From: Candidatus Moraniibacteriota bacterium
GTDB lineage: Bacteria; Patescibacteriota; Minisyncoccia; Moranbacterales; UBA1568
Direction: 5' to 3'
NCBI GenBank assembly: GCA_903859375.1
Contig: CAIOMK010000007.1
Coordinates: 1 to 35,638, forward strand
DNA length: 35,638 bases
The position numbers and the translations under genes were made by a program. Position 1 is the first letter of the stretch. The number at the start of each line of letters is the position of its first letter. Below the pieces are notes generated by a model. That model was not told the origin of the DNA. It saw only the letters and a list, made by a program, of their open reading frames with translations, and searched no databases. Positions 875 through 34,653 of the stretch are shown piece by piece.

Positions 875-878
875 TCAA
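850..878 (-). promoter_or_regulatory. Putative CRISPR array promoter (-35 TTGACA, 17 nt, -10 TCTATA)
   Basis: Minus strand TTGACA (873-878), 17-nt spacer, TCTATA (850-855); the -35 overlaps the cas2 TGA stop. Confidence 0.6.
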
Positions 879-1153
879 AATACTACTATCTCTTTCTCCT
901 CATTCTCCGCATACCCATATCTGATGGCCTTTTTCTTGCACCCCTCACAGATCTGGAAGATAAGTATGCTGTCCGCTCCGGTAAATTGTTTCCGATACTT
1001 CAATTCTATCTCATCGAGCAGATTATGCAAGACCCTATCGCTATTCCGTATCTCGAACACGGAATACTGGATCCGACGACCGTGTTTTTCCAAAAACCTC
1101 GAAAACCGCGAGCGCGTCCGATTCGATTCAAAGTCATATGAGACGAGCAACAT
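875..1153 (-). CDS. cas2: CRISPR-associated endonuclease Cas2
   Basis: 92 aa, MLLVSYDFESNRTRSRFSRFLEKHGRRIQYSVFEI is Cas2-like; located between cas1 and the array. Confidence 0.95.
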   Translation of the reverse strand: MLLVSYDFESNRTRSRFSRFLEKHGRRIQYSVFEIRNSDRVLHNLLDEIELKYRKQFTGADSILIFQICEGCKKKAIRYGYAENEEKEIVVF

Positions 1154-1156
1154 ACA

Positions 1157-2140
1157 TTATTTCTTGATATCAAAATACGGGAAATCGTCCGTCTCATTCA
1201 GTATGGCATAATAATAATCACGGATGTACGAATAGATGTCCTCTTTCCGTTCAAGAATCGCCTCCGTGAAAAGCTGGGCGTATCTGGTACTTTCCTGATA
1301 TTTCAAAAAGTATTGTTTTCGTTTCGGTGAATATTCGAAGTCCTCCTTCTTTACTTGGCCAAGATGATACATCTTGAGCAGTTTTCGTTCGATAATACAC
1401 CGGAACGGCTCCTCTATATCACATGACAGAGACTTCCGTTGAAAAAACAGTTGATGATACACGCCTCGATACGTATCGAATCCGAATAGACGAAGCAAGG
1501 AATCGACGTAATTGAACAGCATAGAATAACCGATGTCGAGCAGGATATTCTCCGGATCTGTTTTTCCTCTCGGGATCCTCCGTCTCCATCCTATGTCCGA
1601 AAAATATTCGCGAAAGAACCGCCTGCTCATTCCCCCTTCGAGACCAAGAAGAACCTGCCTGTCTTCTGTCACACTGATTTTCCCAAATACCTCATGTTCC
1701 AAATCAGACAGCGCTATGGTAGTCGCTTCGACATCGTCAATCGACCGCTCCTTCAGAAGAGCAATCTGGTTCCCTACCTTATTCCGAACGATATGGCATG
1801 CGATTGCAAGACTTCTGTCCGGAGAGAGTGCGTATTGCTTTTCTCGCAAGAGATAATTCCCATCTGCCGCGGCACCCACAGTCGCATAGGTTTCTAAGTT
1901 ACGTTTCAAAAAGAAAACTGATACGCCATTTTCCATACATTTCCGTAGCAGGACACTCGTGAACGATATTTCGCCAAGCACAAACACGGACAACGCCTTC
2001 CCACAGGCGACCTGATTCACCACTTTCCCGTCACGTTCACACGCGATATTCTGATTCTTGATCCGAAGTCGGACGTCCTTTCCAAATTCCGGTTGAATAA
2101 AAAGGATTTGTTTCTCTCGAAAATCTGGCAGGGTAAGCAT
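1157..2140 (-). CDS. cas1: CRISPR-associated endonuclease Cas1
   Basis: 327 aa; Cas1-like sequence (GVSVFFLKRNLETYATV, SLLRLFGFDTYRGVYHQLFFQRKSLSCDIEEPFRCIIERKLL). Confidence 0.96.
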   Translation of the reverse strand: MLTLPDFREKQILFIQPEFGKDVRLRIKNQNIACERDGKVVNQVACGKALSVFVLGEISFTSVLLRKCMENGVSVFFLKRNLETYATVGAAADGNYLLREKQYALSPDRSLAIACHIVRNKVGNQIALLKERSIDDVEATTIALSDLEHEVFGKISVTEDRQVLLGLEGGMSRRFFREYFSDIGWRRRIPRGKTDPENILLDIGYSMLFNYVDSLLRLFGFDTYRGVYHQLFFQRKSLSCDIEEPFRCIIERKLLKMYHLGQVKKEDFEYSPKRKQYFLKYQESTRYAQLFTEAILERKEDIYSYIRDYYYAILNETDDFPYFDIKK

Positions 2141-2156
2141 ATGTAATTCTCAACGA

Positions 2157-2705
2157 TTATAATGGGCGACAGAGCGTCTGATAAATACATCCTCTACATT
2201 TCGCAAGATTTTCTTCCAATGGCGCGTCGGCGATATTGAATACCCTCATTCTCTCCATGATTTCCTCAAACATACGCAGTTCTTCCCCTTCCGGAATCGG
2301 TATCTCATATCGGCGATTATCCGATAGAGACCTGATAACGAGCCTCTCGACTGGAAACCCCGCCTCTGAGAGCGCGAAGTATTGCGCATATAACTGAAGC
2401 CGATATCCTGGATGTACGACTGATATTTTCGACTTCCGTTCAATGAGCGTTTTATTCTCCTTGTCATACAGGTCTATCTTCCCCACGAGTCCATATTTCT
2501 CTAAATAGACTTCCTCTCCTTGCAGATACTTCTTTTCAGAAGCGTATGTCCCGGTATCGACCGTCACATGATTCAACCGGCCACGGACCTGTGGCGAAGC
2601 ATGGTATGTCACATCCGAAAACGACTCATACACCGAATGGAAGTAGAGTGAGCGCGGACAAAACAGGAAGTCATTGATTTTCGAGATCTGGATGAGTGAT
2701 TCCAT
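2157..2705 (-). CDS. cas4: CRISPR-associated exonuclease Cas4
   Basis: ORF track 2157..2756; likely start is the internal Met at 2705 (MESLIQISKINDFLFCPRSLYFHSVY). C-terminal Cys cluster KCRGCIYQTLC and KYGLVGKIDLYD nuclease motif. Confidence 0.94.
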   Translation of the reverse strand: MESLIQISKINDFLFCPRSLYFHSVYESFSDVTYHASPQVRGRLNHVTVDTGTYASEKKYLQGEEVYLEKYGLVGKIDLYDKENKTLIERKSKISVVHPGYRLQLYAQYFALSEAGFPVERLVIRSLSDNRRYEIPIPEGEELRMFEEIMERMRVFNIADAPLEENLAKCRGCIYQTLCRPL

Positions 2706-2784
2706 AGGATAAAGAAAGAAACAGCCTACGGTATACCCGTAAGCCGTTCCTGTCAACCGTCCGCACCGCGCCTATGTTATCCCG

Positions 2785-5700
2785 CTATTTTTTCATAGCA
2801 TTCTCCCGGGCGAAGTTGTCCCATTCAGCGTGAGAGATGTATAACCCTCCCCATCCCAGTCCTTCACAAGTCCCATTTGTTCTCTTATATTCTGATATCT
2901 TATCAAGAATGACAATCCCTTTCCGCGCGATATTATATGCCCCGTTGTCATCCCCGTTTTTCGGAAGTTTCGCACCGAACTTCTCCGGAGACCGACTGTC
3001 GAAGAATGGCGCAACCGGTGAAAGAATGAAGTCACTTTTATCGGAATCCGTTGTGTCGGGGTCTGTGTTTCGAATCTGAAACATCAGATTGACCAAAAAG
3101 ACAAACTCCCGGAAAAACCGCTCGTTCCCTTCGGGATTGATGTCCGCTATGCGGTTCAAGATATCGCCGTTCAGATCAATGTCGACGGATTCGAATAGCT
3201 CACGGAAATTCACAGTCAAATCTGCATAATGGTCGTACCCGCCCTTCCCGACATTGAGTTTCCGATTCCACCGATACCGTTCAACGCTGGACGATACCGT
3301 CCAATCCGTCCGATTTGGAAATACGATATCCCTTGTATCGCCACTCACAAACTTTTTCAGGTCATACGAGACGTCAAACCGGCCCTCATTCAGCATGATC
3401 GACCCGAACTTCGCGATATCCTCCTTTGCTTTCTTCGCACTCGTATATTTAAGATACAGGTTCGGGCGCCACCCGGTAGCCGGGTCGATCTTGGAGGTGT
3501 AACTCGCTTGCGTATAAAAGACAATTCCGGTCTGCTTACCCATCTTCTGGAACGATTCGAATGGTGCGACGAGTTGATATGCGCGGAGCAGGCTCCCCGC
3601 TGACTCAGGATCCGTTTCTCCCTTTTCAACCAGAAACGACAGTTTGTCGATGAGCGCCTTTTCTAATTGCTGATATGCGCTTTTTTCAATGCCTCCGCGG
3701 ATCTGTTTGAACCGCATATTAAGATCCTCGAGGACGATGATAGCATTATGTTCGATAGCCAAATCCGCGAGCTTCCGGACTACCTGCGAGACATATCCGT
3801 TTTTAAGATCCTTGATTCCCTCTACCGCCTGCCAATCCTTGCGAGCCTGTTCCCGACCTTTGGCGCGCTCGTCCAACTTTCCTGCATAGTCAATACCGTT
3901 GACCGTATTGAGACTCCCGCTTTCCACAACCTCCCCTTTTTGAGTGATGACTGAGTAGTATGCCAGATGCTTTTCCCCTCGATCCACACCGATGATGTTC
4001 ATATCAGGGTTTCCGGCAAGTAGGTCATTAATCTCTTCATTGAACCGAAACCGTATACCTTTGCCACGATTCATCGTCATCGGTACATGAAAAAGAATTT
4101 TATCTTCCGAATATCGCTTTCTGCTCACGACTTTCCTACCGTCTTTTCCGGTCATATTCGACCCGTCAGCGTTCTGTTTGAACCCAAGTTTGTCCGTTGC
4201 CGTCGCCGGACGATAGAACAATTCCGCCTGTCCATTCAGCTTCATAGGAAAATCTGCCTCCGCATTCTCCTCCGAAAACAGCGACTCAAAATAGAGTGTA
4301 TGAAGATTTTTCGCTCCGTCCTTCCGTACACCATCTTTCAAATTCCAATCCTTATTATGGATCTCGAAAAGATACAGTTTTTTTGCTGCATCATTCTCTT
4401 TAAGATTATATATACCCTGTTCCAGATACAGTGATGAAATCGGCACAAACGACACGGTATAGAATGAACCTTTGCTTATATCTCTAGCAAGTGATTTTGC
4501 ATCTTTATATTCACGATCAATTACTTTGTCAAGAATTTTTTGAAGTTCTGGAAAAAATACAGCCCTTGTTTCTAAAACCTTTTTCAACCTATCGATTAAT
4601 TCTTCATCGTTTAAAATATCCTGATCATCGGAATACTTTGATCCGAACAAGCCTTTATATACAGAACCGTAAAGCGTTTTCGCATCAACTTGCTTATAAA
4701 CCATCTTTTCGTAGCATTCGGAGTCTGTCTTATATGCTTCAGGAAATTTCGCCTTATCGAAAATTCTTGAATAATTTGTTACTCCGAGAAAAAACCTACC
4801 TCCTTTCCTAAAAAGATACGAGCAGTATTGCGTATTTCCCTCAGGGCTATCGGGCCAACCTTCAAGAAGCTTTGAATTATCAAAATTCAGTTTCCATTTC
4901 TCTTCAGAATACGGTTTCTTCGTGAGATAGTTTCGTAACGCGTCATATGCCTTGATTATTTCTTCACGGGCATTCTCATGGAATGCCAAATATCCCTGCT
5001 CCGGCTCGGAATAGAACGAGTCCAACTCATATTCCTCGTTCCATACGCCTTTCTTCTCAAGTGAGAAATACTTCGCCATCTGGTAGATCCGCAATACCGA
5101 ATCCGCAAAATTTTTGATGAATACTTTCTCATCAGGTCCAAATTTTGATCCGGTTATGGCGGTCATCTTCTGTGCGAATATCTCATACCCTGTCCTCGTC
5201 CGAATCGTCCGGGTCCCCGCATCCGATGAAAGAACCTCCTCAAAGCGTTCGGCATTTATCAATGCTGTCGAAAAGTCTTCTTTCTCGGCAATCGTACGCA
5301 TAGTTTCCGAGCCGAACAGTCCACGAATTTCGAATGAAAGTATACTCAAAAATTGTTCCCATCTCGATTCATTACCAGTAAGAATACCAGCGCTGTTTTC
5401 CGCTGTATTATAATATCGCTCTTTCCATACTCTATTTTCCTGAGGGTACACCAAAAGCGCCTCCTGAAGATACGACAGAGCGATATGGTCCGGAAACGTA
5501 TACAGATCTTCTGCCTTTTTGTACGACAGTCCGCTCGGCTTGTCAGATTTCATTACTCCATACAAAGCAGACTCAAAGTCGTGTGTATTCTCGCTCCATT
5601 TACGGGTAATGGTATTGAAACCTTCTTTGGAAAGATAGATTTTTGAAAGATCAAACGCATCATTCTCAGATACGAACTTCCCCATAAGCAACCGGAAGAT

Positions 5701-6726
5701 GCCGACCTTCGATCCCGCATTTTTCCGAAACGTTCCCAATACAGATATCAACTCTTCATCATTTTCTATCCCTTCAAGAAACGCGTCTTTTTCGCTTAAT
5801 ATCTGTTTGTCGAGCGGCTTCAAAAACGGCAATCTCTCGCCTTTGTGGTCTTGGAGATATTTATTGATATATTGATTGATACCTTTCTTATTCTGGTCTG
5901 TCGAATCACCGCCGAGAACAGTGTTATATCTGTCTATTCCCTGTTGTAACAGGCACTCGTCATAGAATCTCGGGGAGAATACATTACCGAGAAAGACGTC
6001 AAAATGACCTTCAACCTCGGAAAGATCAAGTGTCTTCCTCAGCCGATCAAACGCTATAATATTGTCGCAAAATCTTTTCAGATTCTCATCGACTATGCGA
6101 GTAGCAATCGCGGAGTGCTTCCCGTCATCCTTGTAAAAATTCTTTCTCGACTCATGAAACTTTGTAAAATAACCAGCAAATCCCTTCCATTGGTCGAAAA
6201 TGGAAATCCGATTTCCTGCATCATCCTCGACAAACGCATCTTCTTCAGTACCATACCGTTCCCTCAAAACACGGAATATCCCCTCCTCAAAAAGAAAATC
6301 GATCCCTGATTTCTTAATTTTTGCAGATGAATATTGTTCCGCCCACACCTTGGCAGTCTCTTCAAAAAATCGGGTAACCTCATTGCGCAATGATTTCTCT
6401 ATGTCCGTCAGTTTCTTCGCCTTCGTTTTATCTTTTTTGTCCGTTCGCCAATCGGAGAATATTGATAAATAATCCGTCAATCCGGACAATGCAACGTTCG
6501 AGAGAGACTCCTGCACAAATTCACGGTGTAATCTATCAAAATACGGTTTTGTCCGTTCGTATTTTTCCTTGATCATCCTGTCCTTTTCAAACACACCAGC
6601 CTCATCAAGCATTTCCTTGGTTTTCCCTACCGGTCGCAATTCGAACCGAAGCGTCTTTGAAAGCTCATACTTTCGTGTAAAGTCACTGAATGCCGAGATC
6701 TGTTTTCCGCTCATCATACAATACAT
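2785..6726 (-). CDS. cas12a: Cas12a (Cpf1) effector nuclease
   Basis: 1313 aa; N-terminus FTRKYELSKTLRFELRPVGKT; RuvC-I IIGVDRGEKHLAYYSV, RuvC-II IIVLEDLNMRFK, RuvC-III DDNGAYNIARKG; bridge helix ARKDWQAVEGIKDLKNGYVSQVV. Confidence 0.99.
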   Translation of the reverse strand: MYCMMSGKQISAFSDFTRKYELSKTLRFELRPVGKTKEMLDEAGVFEKDRMIKEKYERTKPYFDRLHREFVQESLSNVALSGLTDYLSIFSDWRTDKKDKTKAKKLTDIEKSLRNEVTRFFEETAKVWAEQYSSAKIKKSGIDFLFEEGIFRVLRERYGTEEDAFVEDDAGNRISIFDQWKGFAGYFTKFHESRKNFYKDDGKHSAIATRIVDENLKRFCDNIIAFDRLRKTLDLSEVEGHFDVFLGNVFSPRFYDECLLQQGIDRYNTVLGGDSTDQNKKGINQYINKYLQDHKGERLPFLKPLDKQILSEKDAFLEGIENDEELISVLGTFRKNAGSKVGIFRLLMGKFVSENDAFDLSKIYLSKEGFNTITRKWSENTHDFESALYGVMKSDKPSGLSYKKAEDLYTFPDHIALSYLQEALLVYPQENRVWKERYYNTAENSAGILTGNESRWEQFLSILSFEIRGLFGSETMRTIAEKEDFSTALINAERFEEVLSSDAGTRTIRTRTGYEIFAQKMTAITGSKFGPDEKVFIKNFADSVLRIYQMAKYFSLEKKGVWNEEYELDSFYSEPEQGYLAFHENAREEIIKAYDALRNYLTKKPYSEEKWKLNFDNSKLLEGWPDSPEGNTQYCSYLFRKGGRFFLGVTNYSRIFDKAKFPEAYKTDSECYEKMVYKQVDAKTLYGSVYKGLFGSKYSDDQDILNDEELIDRLKKVLETRAVFFPELQKILDKVIDREYKDAKSLARDISKGSFYTVSFVPISSLYLEQGIYNLKENDAAKKLYLFEIHNKDWNLKDGVRKDGAKNLHTLYFESLFSEENAEADFPMKLNGQAELFYRPATATDKLGFKQNADGSNMTGKDGRKVVSRKRYSEDKILFHVPMTMNRGKGIRFRFNEEINDLLAGNPDMNIIGVDRGEKHLAYYSVITQKGEVVESGSLNTVNGIDYAGKLDERAKGREQARKDWQAVEGIKDLKNGYVSQVVRKLADLAIEHNAIIVLEDLNMRFKQIRGGIEKSAYQQLEKALIDKLSFLVEKGETDPESAGSLLRAYQLVAPFESFQKMGKQTGIVFYTQASYTSKIDPATGWRPNLYLKYTSAKKAKEDIAKFGSIMLNEGRFDVSYDLKKFVSGDTRDIVFPNRTDWTVSSSVERYRWNRKLNVGKGGYDHYADLTVNFRELFESVDIDLNGDILNRIADINPEGNERFFREFVFLVNLMFQIRNTDPDTTDSDKSDFILSPVAPFFDSRSPEKFGAKLPKNGDDNGAYNIARKGIVILDKISEYKRTNGTCEGLGWGGLYISHAEWDNFARENAMKK

Positions 6727-32494: not shown

Positions 32495-32523
32495 TACCAC
32501 CTTTTTTCAAGCCGAAAAACAGG

Positions 32524-32551
32524 TAGAGACGAGGCGCACCTCGTCTCTACG
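32524..32551. repeat. REP-like palindrome GTAGAGACGAGG-CGCA-CCTCGTCTCTAC
   Basis: Perfect 12-bp stem with 4-nt loop, no U tract; between a hypothetical gene and leuS. Confidence 0.75.
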
Positions 32552-32603
32552 GAATTCAGATGATTGCGATTACCTCGAAACAGTAACGCTGCCACACTAT
32601 CTC

Positions 32604-33248
32604 CTAAATACCCATACCTTCAACATTTTCTGCATTTTTCAATTTTTCGTCACACATTCCCTCATATATGCTTTTATATTTCTTCAACTTCTTTTTCCAT
32701 GTCTCCAATAACGTAATTATCTCTCTTTTCGTATATGATTCCCTTTTATAATCATTACTTACCCCCAAATGATACCTATTGTCATTAAGTTCAATTCGTT
32801 TCAGATGCTCCTCTTTATGCCCAAGCATCTTTTTCAAATTCTCAACCATTTCTTGTGCATCTTCAAAAAGAATTTTCGTTTTCTCAAAATCATCTTCAAT
32901 AGCAGAAACGTCGGGATCTTCTATATCAGCAACAAATTTTTTTGCTCTCCTTGCAAGATATAGGATTTCCCTTTTAATCGTATCTTTGTATTCTTGAGTC
33001 GGGTTGTTGTTACCCCACGAGACAACCGAATCAATAATCTCTCGCTCAGCCTTTCTTTCTTTTATATCCGTGTCACGTTTGTTTTCAAAATCCACCTCAT
33101 TCATCTGCTCCTCTGTCAAATGCAATCGTGCTTCATCTCCATTTTCATTTTTGACATATTCCGCTCCACCTCTGAGAAAATCAGCGTCCGATATAACAAC
33201 TTTTTTCAATCTCGCAAGTTCTTCCGCCGACGGCATTTCCCTACTCAT
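32604..33248 (-). CDS. Hypothetical charged, helical protein
   Basis: 214 aa; Lys/Glu-rich helical pattern; preceded by a strong putative promoter. Confidence 0.75.
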   Translation of the reverse strand: MSREMPSAEELARLKKVVISDADFLRGGAEYVKNENGDEARLHLTEEQMNEVDFENKRDTDIKERKAEREIIDSVVSWGNNNPTQEYKDTIKREILYLARRAKKFVADIEDPDVSAIEDDFEKTKILFEDAQEMVENLKKMLGHKEEHLKRIELNDNRYHLGVSNDYKRESYTKREIITLLETWKKKLKKYKSIYEGMCDEKLKNAENVEGMGI

Positions 33249-33286
33249 ATTTGTTGCAATTATGATAGATTACAAAACCTGACCCC

Positions 33287-33317
33287 ATAGTACCCCCCCC
33301 CCGACAACACGTGTCAA
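33287..33317 (-). promoter_or_regulatory. Putative promoter with poly-G tract in the -35/-10 spacer
   Basis: Minus strand TTGACA (33312-33317), 19-nt spacer that includes G10 (33293-33302), TACTAT (33287-33292). Confidence 0.6.
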
Positions 33318-33419
33318 TATCACATTATTCTAATATTTCAACGTATTTTCGGCATAACAAAATAGTCGAGCCTTCAAATTAAGGTCCGACCTTTTCTGGC
33401 CACTTTCCTATGAACGATA

Positions 33420-34484
33420 TCAGTCTCCTAGTTTGCCGATAGCGATTACCAGTTCGACTCGCTCTTGTTCCCTGTCTGTTTTCGCGAGAAGTTCTTCCAG
33501 TCCATCTCGGATATGTTTCTTCTCAGTTTCGGAGACGCGCTCAAGTATATACGACAAATCACGCGTGTCCTGAGGTCGATTAGCTCTCGCCTTAGCGATC
33601 GCCATATGAACCAAATCGACGACCGGCGCCTCGGCACCATTCGGCAGCCGTACTGTTTCGTTTGCAAAGAGTGCGGTCTCGTCGACCGGCAGTCCGCCGT
33701 ACTCATAAGCACCATTCTTTTCCTTCAGATAGTGCACGTCGATTATCGTCAAGCCGTCGTACCGTTTTAAGTCGGTCGATCCGTCGTCATCCACTGGCAT
33801 CGCAACCAGCATCTCCCTTCCCGTAAACTTCAACTGCTCGTATCGTGAAAAAGACATCATGCCGTTCGTTTTCGCGGCATCTGTGTCCCAAACGAACAAG
33901 CCCCATTTGCTTTCATTATGAGTAGAACGAAGCTGGGCATCCAGCATATCGAGCTCATCGCTAGGAACGAGGATATCGATATCGCGGTGTGTTCTCAAAA
34001 ACGACTTCGTCTCCTCCAACTGACGGAGTGATAACCCGATTGCACCATCTATCGAATATCTGAGACCCGATCCCCTGATGCAGTCAACCAAACCTTCACA
34101 TTCTTCGACCAGTTTCACCATATCCCGCCCTTCTGCTGATTCGATGGGAACCGGCTCGGAGTTACCTTCGAAACTCGCGTTTTGAACCCGGTTCAGGTAC
34201 TTTTTCACCACTTGGGGATCGCTTATCGAAACTGTCTCGTTTCCAATTTCGTTTTGGTCGGTTTCCGAATTCATCAACTTTATTCTGATACTCGATATTT
34301 TCGTCTCGTCCTCTCTCTGCTGCTTTTCTTGATCTGCAACAAGCGCCTCATACTCGCGTTCATAATCAATACCCCTTGTTTCTTTTGATCCATCATTCCC
34401 CGCACCCAACCCTGTCGAGTCGACTTTGATTTCCTTGATTCCCATTTTTCCCTGCGTATTTTCGACGAATTTTGATTCTGGCAT
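33420..34484 (-). CDS. Nucleotidyltransferase-fold protein (resembles the ANT(2'')/LNT-type nucleotidyltransferases)
   Basis: 354 aa; YSIDGAIGLSLRQLEETKSFLRTHRDIDILVPSDELDML resembles G-x-hhD and H-x-DIDI motifs; C-terminal helices VDLVHMAIAKARANRPQDTRDLSYIL. Confidence 0.6.
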   Translation of the reverse strand: MPESKFVENTQGKMGIKEIKVDSTGLGAGNDGSKETRGIDYEREYEALVADQEKQQREDETKISSIRIKLMNSETDQNEIGNETVSISDPQVVKKYLNRVQNASFEGNSEPVPIESAEGRDMVKLVEECEGLVDCIRGSGLRYSIDGAIGLSLRQLEETKSFLRTHRDIDILVPSDELDMLDAQLRSTHNESKWGLFVWDTDAAKTNGMMSFSRYEQLKFTGREMLVAMPVDDDGSTDLKRYDGLTIIDVHYLKEKNGAYEYGGLPVDETALFANETVRLPNGAEAPVVDLVHMAIAKARANRPQDTRDLSYILERVSETEKKHIRDGLEELLAKTDREQERVELVIAIGKLGD

Positions 34485-34618
34485 AAATGTGTATTGAAAC
34501 TCAAGTCCATTTGCAGAGAAAGTATATCATATTCGAATATCAATCTGTTCTAATATTTCTTGCACAAATGGACCTATCGTTCCTCGGGCCGGCAAGAAAA
34601 CAACATATTCGGTATGTC

Positions 34619-34653
34619 AAAAGACTAAACCTTCGTCGAAGGTTTAGTCTTTT
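34619..34653. terminator. Bidirectional intrinsic terminator after atpC
   Basis: AAAAGACTAAACCTTCG-T-CGAAGGTTTAGTCTTTT, 17-nt arms. Confidence 0.85.

Follow-up and report, generated by a model that had tools for sequence, protein, structure and literature searches.

Does the G10 homopolymer between the promoter-like hexamers upstream of a 214-aa gene act as a length-dependent switch of transcription? The window analyzed here, 35,638 nt in length, is contig C7 in full, one of the 78 contigs of a 1.03-Mb assembly with 94% completeness, and all homopolymer lengths are those of the assembled sequences. The minus strand at 33317-33287 reads TTGACA-CGTGTTGTC-GGGGGGGGGG-TACTAT, in which GGGGGGGGGG is G10, and the sequence, coordinates and 19-nt spacer described in the earlier note were all confirmed. 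The -35 box TTGACA (33312..33317, minus strand like all elements of this promoter) agrees with the consensus at 6/6 positions, and TTGAC is enriched at this place across the order. A 9-nt core, CGTGTTGTC (33303..33311), leads from the -35 box to the tract (33293..33302), which is a candidate slippage site. The -10 box TACTAT (33287..33292) adjoins the tract and matches the consensus at 4/6 positions only. A 38-nt leader (33249..33286) connects the -10 box to the ATG at 33248; it contains no obvious Shine-Dalgarno sequence, and its length agrees with the class of promoters described below, where the ATG mostly lies about 28-40 nt 3' of the -10 box. The G10 is the only G/C run longer than 6 nt in the window. 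The entire 1.03-Mb assembly contains two G/C runs of 10, and the next longest is a single run of 8. Both long and exceptional in its own genome, the tract has the properties expected of a slippage site.

Promoters of the same architecture were found in many relatives. A survey of 131 genomes of the order with the pattern TTGACA-N(3-12)-G7-N(0-8)-TANNNT revealed 27 distinct sites in 22 genomes, and none for the reversed-pattern control. The earlier note had described the site as an unexpected contingency locus; with at least one such site in 22 of the 131 genomes, it is neither isolated nor unexpected in this group. A relaxed search that required only TTG gave 36 distinct sites in 29 genomes (three for the reversed control), and TTGAC was present at 27 of these 36 sites versus about two expected (1 in 16 by chance). 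The poly-C control, with C8 in place of G8, gave four sites in three genomes, three of them near-identical and from one genus. In a sample of 380 genomes from the phylum, which range from 0.4 to 2.0 Mb throughout, 21 sites were identified in 14 genomes, compared to one in the control. Altogether, site statistics were calculated for 51 collected sites. Their tracts comprise 7-14 Gs with a mode of 9-10, and in nearly all cases the -10 box, a TANNNT hexamer, follows the tract without a gap. The core that separates the tract from the -35 box is most commonly 9 nt long (25/51), and the total spacer ranges from 14 to 21 nt with a mode of 19. The combination observed in the window (9 + G10 = 19) is the single commonest among the collected sites.

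The design extends well beyond the phylum. A GTDB-wide scan with TTGACA-N(8-12)-G9-TANNAT yielded more than 117 stretches among the matches listed, versus roughly 9 expected by our own estimate under uniform composition, and 9 nt was again the mode of the core among the matches listed. These include gut Firmicutes, Treponema, Helicobacter, Streptobacillus and five named Candidatus Saccharibacteria contigs. Because the GTDB-wide matches show the design to be widespread, the candidate promoter in the window is best placed within a known kind and does not represent a new mechanism. The Saccharibacteria poly-G spacer promoters are located in L134, L146, L175, L177 and L178, and signal-peptide-like proteins are encoded downstream of those in L146, L175 and L177.

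Several comparisons between relatives revealed different tract lengths at the same position. An alignment of L073 (genome G085) with L089 (genome G052) that starts at the -35 box and takes in the ORF shows 96% identity in 1535 bp, and one of the two loci carries G10, the other G11; homopolymer A-runs in this alignment carry indels as well, and G10/G11 is a difference between two genomes. In three further genomes (G037, G072 and G043), promoters that are nearly identical to one another (TTGACAACAAGCGTC or TTGACACCAAGCGTC) carry G9, G10 and G10, respectively, and stand in front of different genes; these are likewise between-genome differences.

Homologues of the 214-aa protein point in the same direction. 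In the order, they have only the N-terminal ~45 aa in common, with the consensus MPTPEEMAKIQKERTxSDAELLKGGAEYxxDENGxxRLxxTxEQ, and their C-terminal parts look unrelated; we refer to this module, shared by otherwise unrelated proteins, as family A. Seven homologues came from a search with protein sequence only, from which upstream regions were excluded, and L091 was found via its promoter. In five of the eight first-found members with the N-terminal module, a poly-G (lengths 10, 7, 7, 10 and 12) is followed by a -10-like hexamer with little or nothing in between. These are the window member (G10 before TACTAT), L010 and L011 (two of the seven homologues from the protein search, both TTGACATTTGA-G7-TGATAAAAT), L091 (TTGACAAAAAGCTAC-G10-TATTAT) and L013 (TTACAAAAAGTGTC-G12-ATAGAAT). 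Ordinary promoter-like sequence lacking a tract precedes L014 and L015, and no tract was visible before L009. In the class sample, the module is present in 12 of 384 genomes. None of the four clear members outside the order with readable upstream regions (L301, L303, L304 and L308) has a tract, and the link between module and tract is therefore strong mainly within the order. In L012 (G013:C2:136243-136569) the module occurs twice within a 1103-aa open frame, hence it is not always N-terminal.

Taken as sequence evidence, these observations favor, with a probability of roughly 0.77, a spacer-length phase-variable promoter of the porA/tp0126 kind and of housekeeping-sigma type upstream of the 214-aa accessory gene. 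The poly-G spacer promoter proposed earlier is thereby supported, since the same architecture precedes homologues and many other genes of relatives with varying tract length. Under the proposed mechanism, polymerase slippage with slipped-strand mispairing at the poly-G would add or remove Gs, the distance and rotational phase between the -35 and -10 boxes would be altered, and transcription of the 214-aa gene would be switched or graded. We infer that the promoter would be transcribed in this organism, that tract length would vary within the population, and that certain lengths would be ON.

A functional promoter could also hold the poly-G as a fixed element, for instance through DNA stiffness or twist or as a regulator site by the -10 box, with length changes merely tolerated. 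The position of the tract at the -10 box and the core length are indeed more constant than a pure spacer needs, the spacer mode is 19 rather than 17, and L010 and L011 form a pair without length variation. Nevertheless, tract lengths from 7 to 14 are not compensated by the core (the two are uncorrelated, with a coefficient of 0.04), which is unexpected for a fixed element, and the rest of the genome has few long G runs. We consider this explanation unlikely. A random G10 near promoter-like hexamers, with the true promoter elsewhere, has a much smaller chance of being correct. A regional consensus scan limited to 16-18 nt spacers found hardly more promoter-like sites than chance would give (12 versus 8.1 +/- 3.3), and the site in question is not among them. 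However, when the intergenic region was shuffled with the tract kept, a TTGACA at a usable distance together with a TANNNT abutting the tract arose in only 6 per 100,000 trials (6e-5), and the arrangement recurs before homologues and across the order where the reversed control is zero; chance was rejected on account of the shuffles and this conservation. Finally, it is scarcely credible that the G run belongs to the end of an insertion sequence, transposon or REP-type intergenic repeat marked by GGGGTCAGGT on the 3' side of the -10 box, since GGGGTCAGGT does occur at five places in the genome but the other four copies share AAAGGGGTCAGGTAC or AAAAGGGGTCAGGTAC, absent from both flanks here, one 10-mer match is about the chance expectation for 2 Mb of strand, and the poly-G promoters of relatives lack the motif. 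The AAAGGGGTCAGGTAC intergenic repeat itself has four copies (G000 C3:9915 and 10046, C5:5921, C25:276), and has only the 10-mer in common with the window site.

Three traits of the porA/tp0126 kind are seen at the phase-variable promoter proposed here: the G10 lies between recognizable -35 and -10 hexamers, it is exceptionally long for its genome, and tracts at the same position in relatives differ in length. The activity of both porA and tp0126 depends on the -35/-10 spacing and is best at 17 nt (PMC7864442). Neisseria meningitidis porA resembles the window site in having its poly-G wholly within the spacer (van der Ende 1995, cited by PMC5084427), where tract length sets the spacing (PMC7864442). 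In contrast, porA belongs to another phylum and encodes a surface porin, whereas the candidate switch of the window precedes the gene for a soluble, charged orphan protein. Treponema pallidum tp0126 likewise has its poly-G between the -35 and -10 boxes (PMC7864442). However, it encodes an OmpW homologue, and the length effects measured with reporters are those of tp0126. Of the two Neisseria genes named for comparison in the earlier note, porA is apt, as is tp0126, and opc is not. Homopolymer length controls transcription of opc, as proposed here, but PMC7864442 places its poly-C over the -35 region, not inside the spacer; in the window, 9 nt separate TTGACA from the tract. The tprL arrangement, in which the tract spans the -10 box and the transcription start follows closely, does not apply, with TACTAT following the tract. 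A translational contingency tract was also considered and rejected, as 44 nt separate the tract from the ATG, so that the tract is outside the coding sequence. Within the same broad radiation, rapid local variation has been proposed for a hypervariable repeat gene of Gracilibacterium (PMC6851277); there, 9-mer coding repeats give rise to proline-threonine repeats, and a promoter homopolymer is absent.

By analogy with porA and tp0126, G8 (17 nt) would be the optimal length here. Yet the spacer mode of the class is 19, not 17, and the simple prediction that G8 is ON is unsupported by the length distribution. As promoters of the class most often have a 19-bp spacer, the G10 allele of the window may not be OFF. 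Poly-G DNA may shift the spacing optimum, or most assembled alleles may be weak or OFF. We therefore propose that promoter strength depends on tract length, and propose no direction for the switch.

The 214-aa ORF (32604..33248, minus strand) encodes a soluble, highly charged protein, whose first ~45 aa form the family A module. It has no assignment in Pfam, NCBIfam or PADLOC, and its structure prediction (mean pLDDT 45) was unusable. Homologues were not found in five genomes of the same genus, and a search for related loci with the 214-aa protein among named genomes returned nothing. Upstream of this gene is a 354-aa ORF (33420..34484, minus strand) with a weak nucleotidyltransferase-like match (E 0.03). 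Together, the two genes make up an accessory insert of ~2.2 kb (32532..34620, approximate) between atpC, encoding the epsilon subunit of ATP synthase, and leuS. The insert is absent in four relatives, three from the same genus and one from the same family, where atpC and leuS are adjacent with a gap of about 70-130 bp. A probable terminator at 32523..32550 (minus strand) consists of a 12-bp perfect hairpin followed by CTGTTTTT, a T-rich tail. Given its own candidate promoter and this downstream hairpin, the 214-aa gene looks like an independent monocistronic unit within the insert.

Other features of the window and its surroundings were also noted. Intergenic terminator-like hairpins with the stem GTAGAGACG or a similar one and a varying inner stem occur at window positions 32523-32550 and in L315, L316 and L011. 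In the same genus, the leuS products of L314, L315, L316 and L318 are LeuRS with some 150 aa inserted in frame, which contain a Nudix-like box, GGVEDGEDxVEAAxREVLEETG; this insert is missing from the LeuRS of the window. A Type V-A CRISPR system occupies positions 1-732 and 875-6726; its array has 12 or more repeats (ATCTACAACAGTAGAAATCTTATAGGTGTATTTGGC), and its genes resemble cas2, cas1, cas4 and cas12a, the last encoding 1313 aa with 8qwd as the best sequence match in the PDB. An Rfam search found nothing apart from a tRNA.

Most genes under poly-G promoters encode soluble, highly charged products of 100-350 aa, and a sample of these had few matches in Pfam, NCBIfam or PADLOC. Several are grouped by common N-termini into families A-D. 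A minority look membrane-bound or secreted, for example an ABC exporter (L099) and a substrate-binding-type protein (L129). Other small families under poly-G promoters (L066/L067, L076/L093 and L073/L074/L089/L094) also share short N-terminal modules and have divergent C-termini.

The other G10/C10 run of the genome, at C12:1474-1483 (L001:1474-1483), lies within a diversity-generating retroelement (DGR) with Pfam matches to RVT_1 and bAvd. Its template and variable repeats (L001:1853-1972 and 2293-2412) are 120 nt long and 88% identical, with 14 of the 15 differences at template adenines, and the DGR target gene occupies 2283-3005 on the minus strand. On the avd strand, the C10 starts 16 nt past the first base of the ATG. 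Located within the coding sequence, where its length sets the frame, the tract has the form of a translational contingency tract: avd is out of frame as assembled, and C8 or C11 would restore the frame. Among 90 long G tracts listed for the order, bAvd-family genes carry 15 at their 5' ends, and 13 belong to the promoter class. We read in detail 21 avd genes from this and related genomes, selected for C9-C11 near the start; the frame is kept in 10 of them and lost in 11. One near-identical pair is divided, L300 belonging to the in-frame and L288 to the out-of-frame group. An adjacent RT was confirmed for L001, L100 and L123 only, and bAvd is similar to other four-helix proteins. Judging from reading frames, the C10 in L001 is probably a second, translational phase switch, that of a DGR accessory protein. 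No report of poly-C frame tracts at avd starts was found in the literature.

The best-known cases of simple-repeat phase variation are found in host-associated pathogens, and full-text literature searches revealed no report of it for Patescibacteria/CPR. We lean slightly toward the view that these tiny-genome lineages, which to judge from their genome sizes are probably Patescibacterial (CPR), possess an unrecognized G:C-homopolymer phasome. It would comprise poly-G promoters in front of charged, fast-evolving orphans with short N-terminal modules, together with poly-C frame switches at avd starts, at least some of them in DGRs. If this reading is true, phase variation would extend to the hypermutation machinery itself. 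Should the tracts indeed switch, they would offer nearly clonal, metabolically minimal episymbionts a cheap means of diversification, and the switched genes would be ready candidates for host contact.
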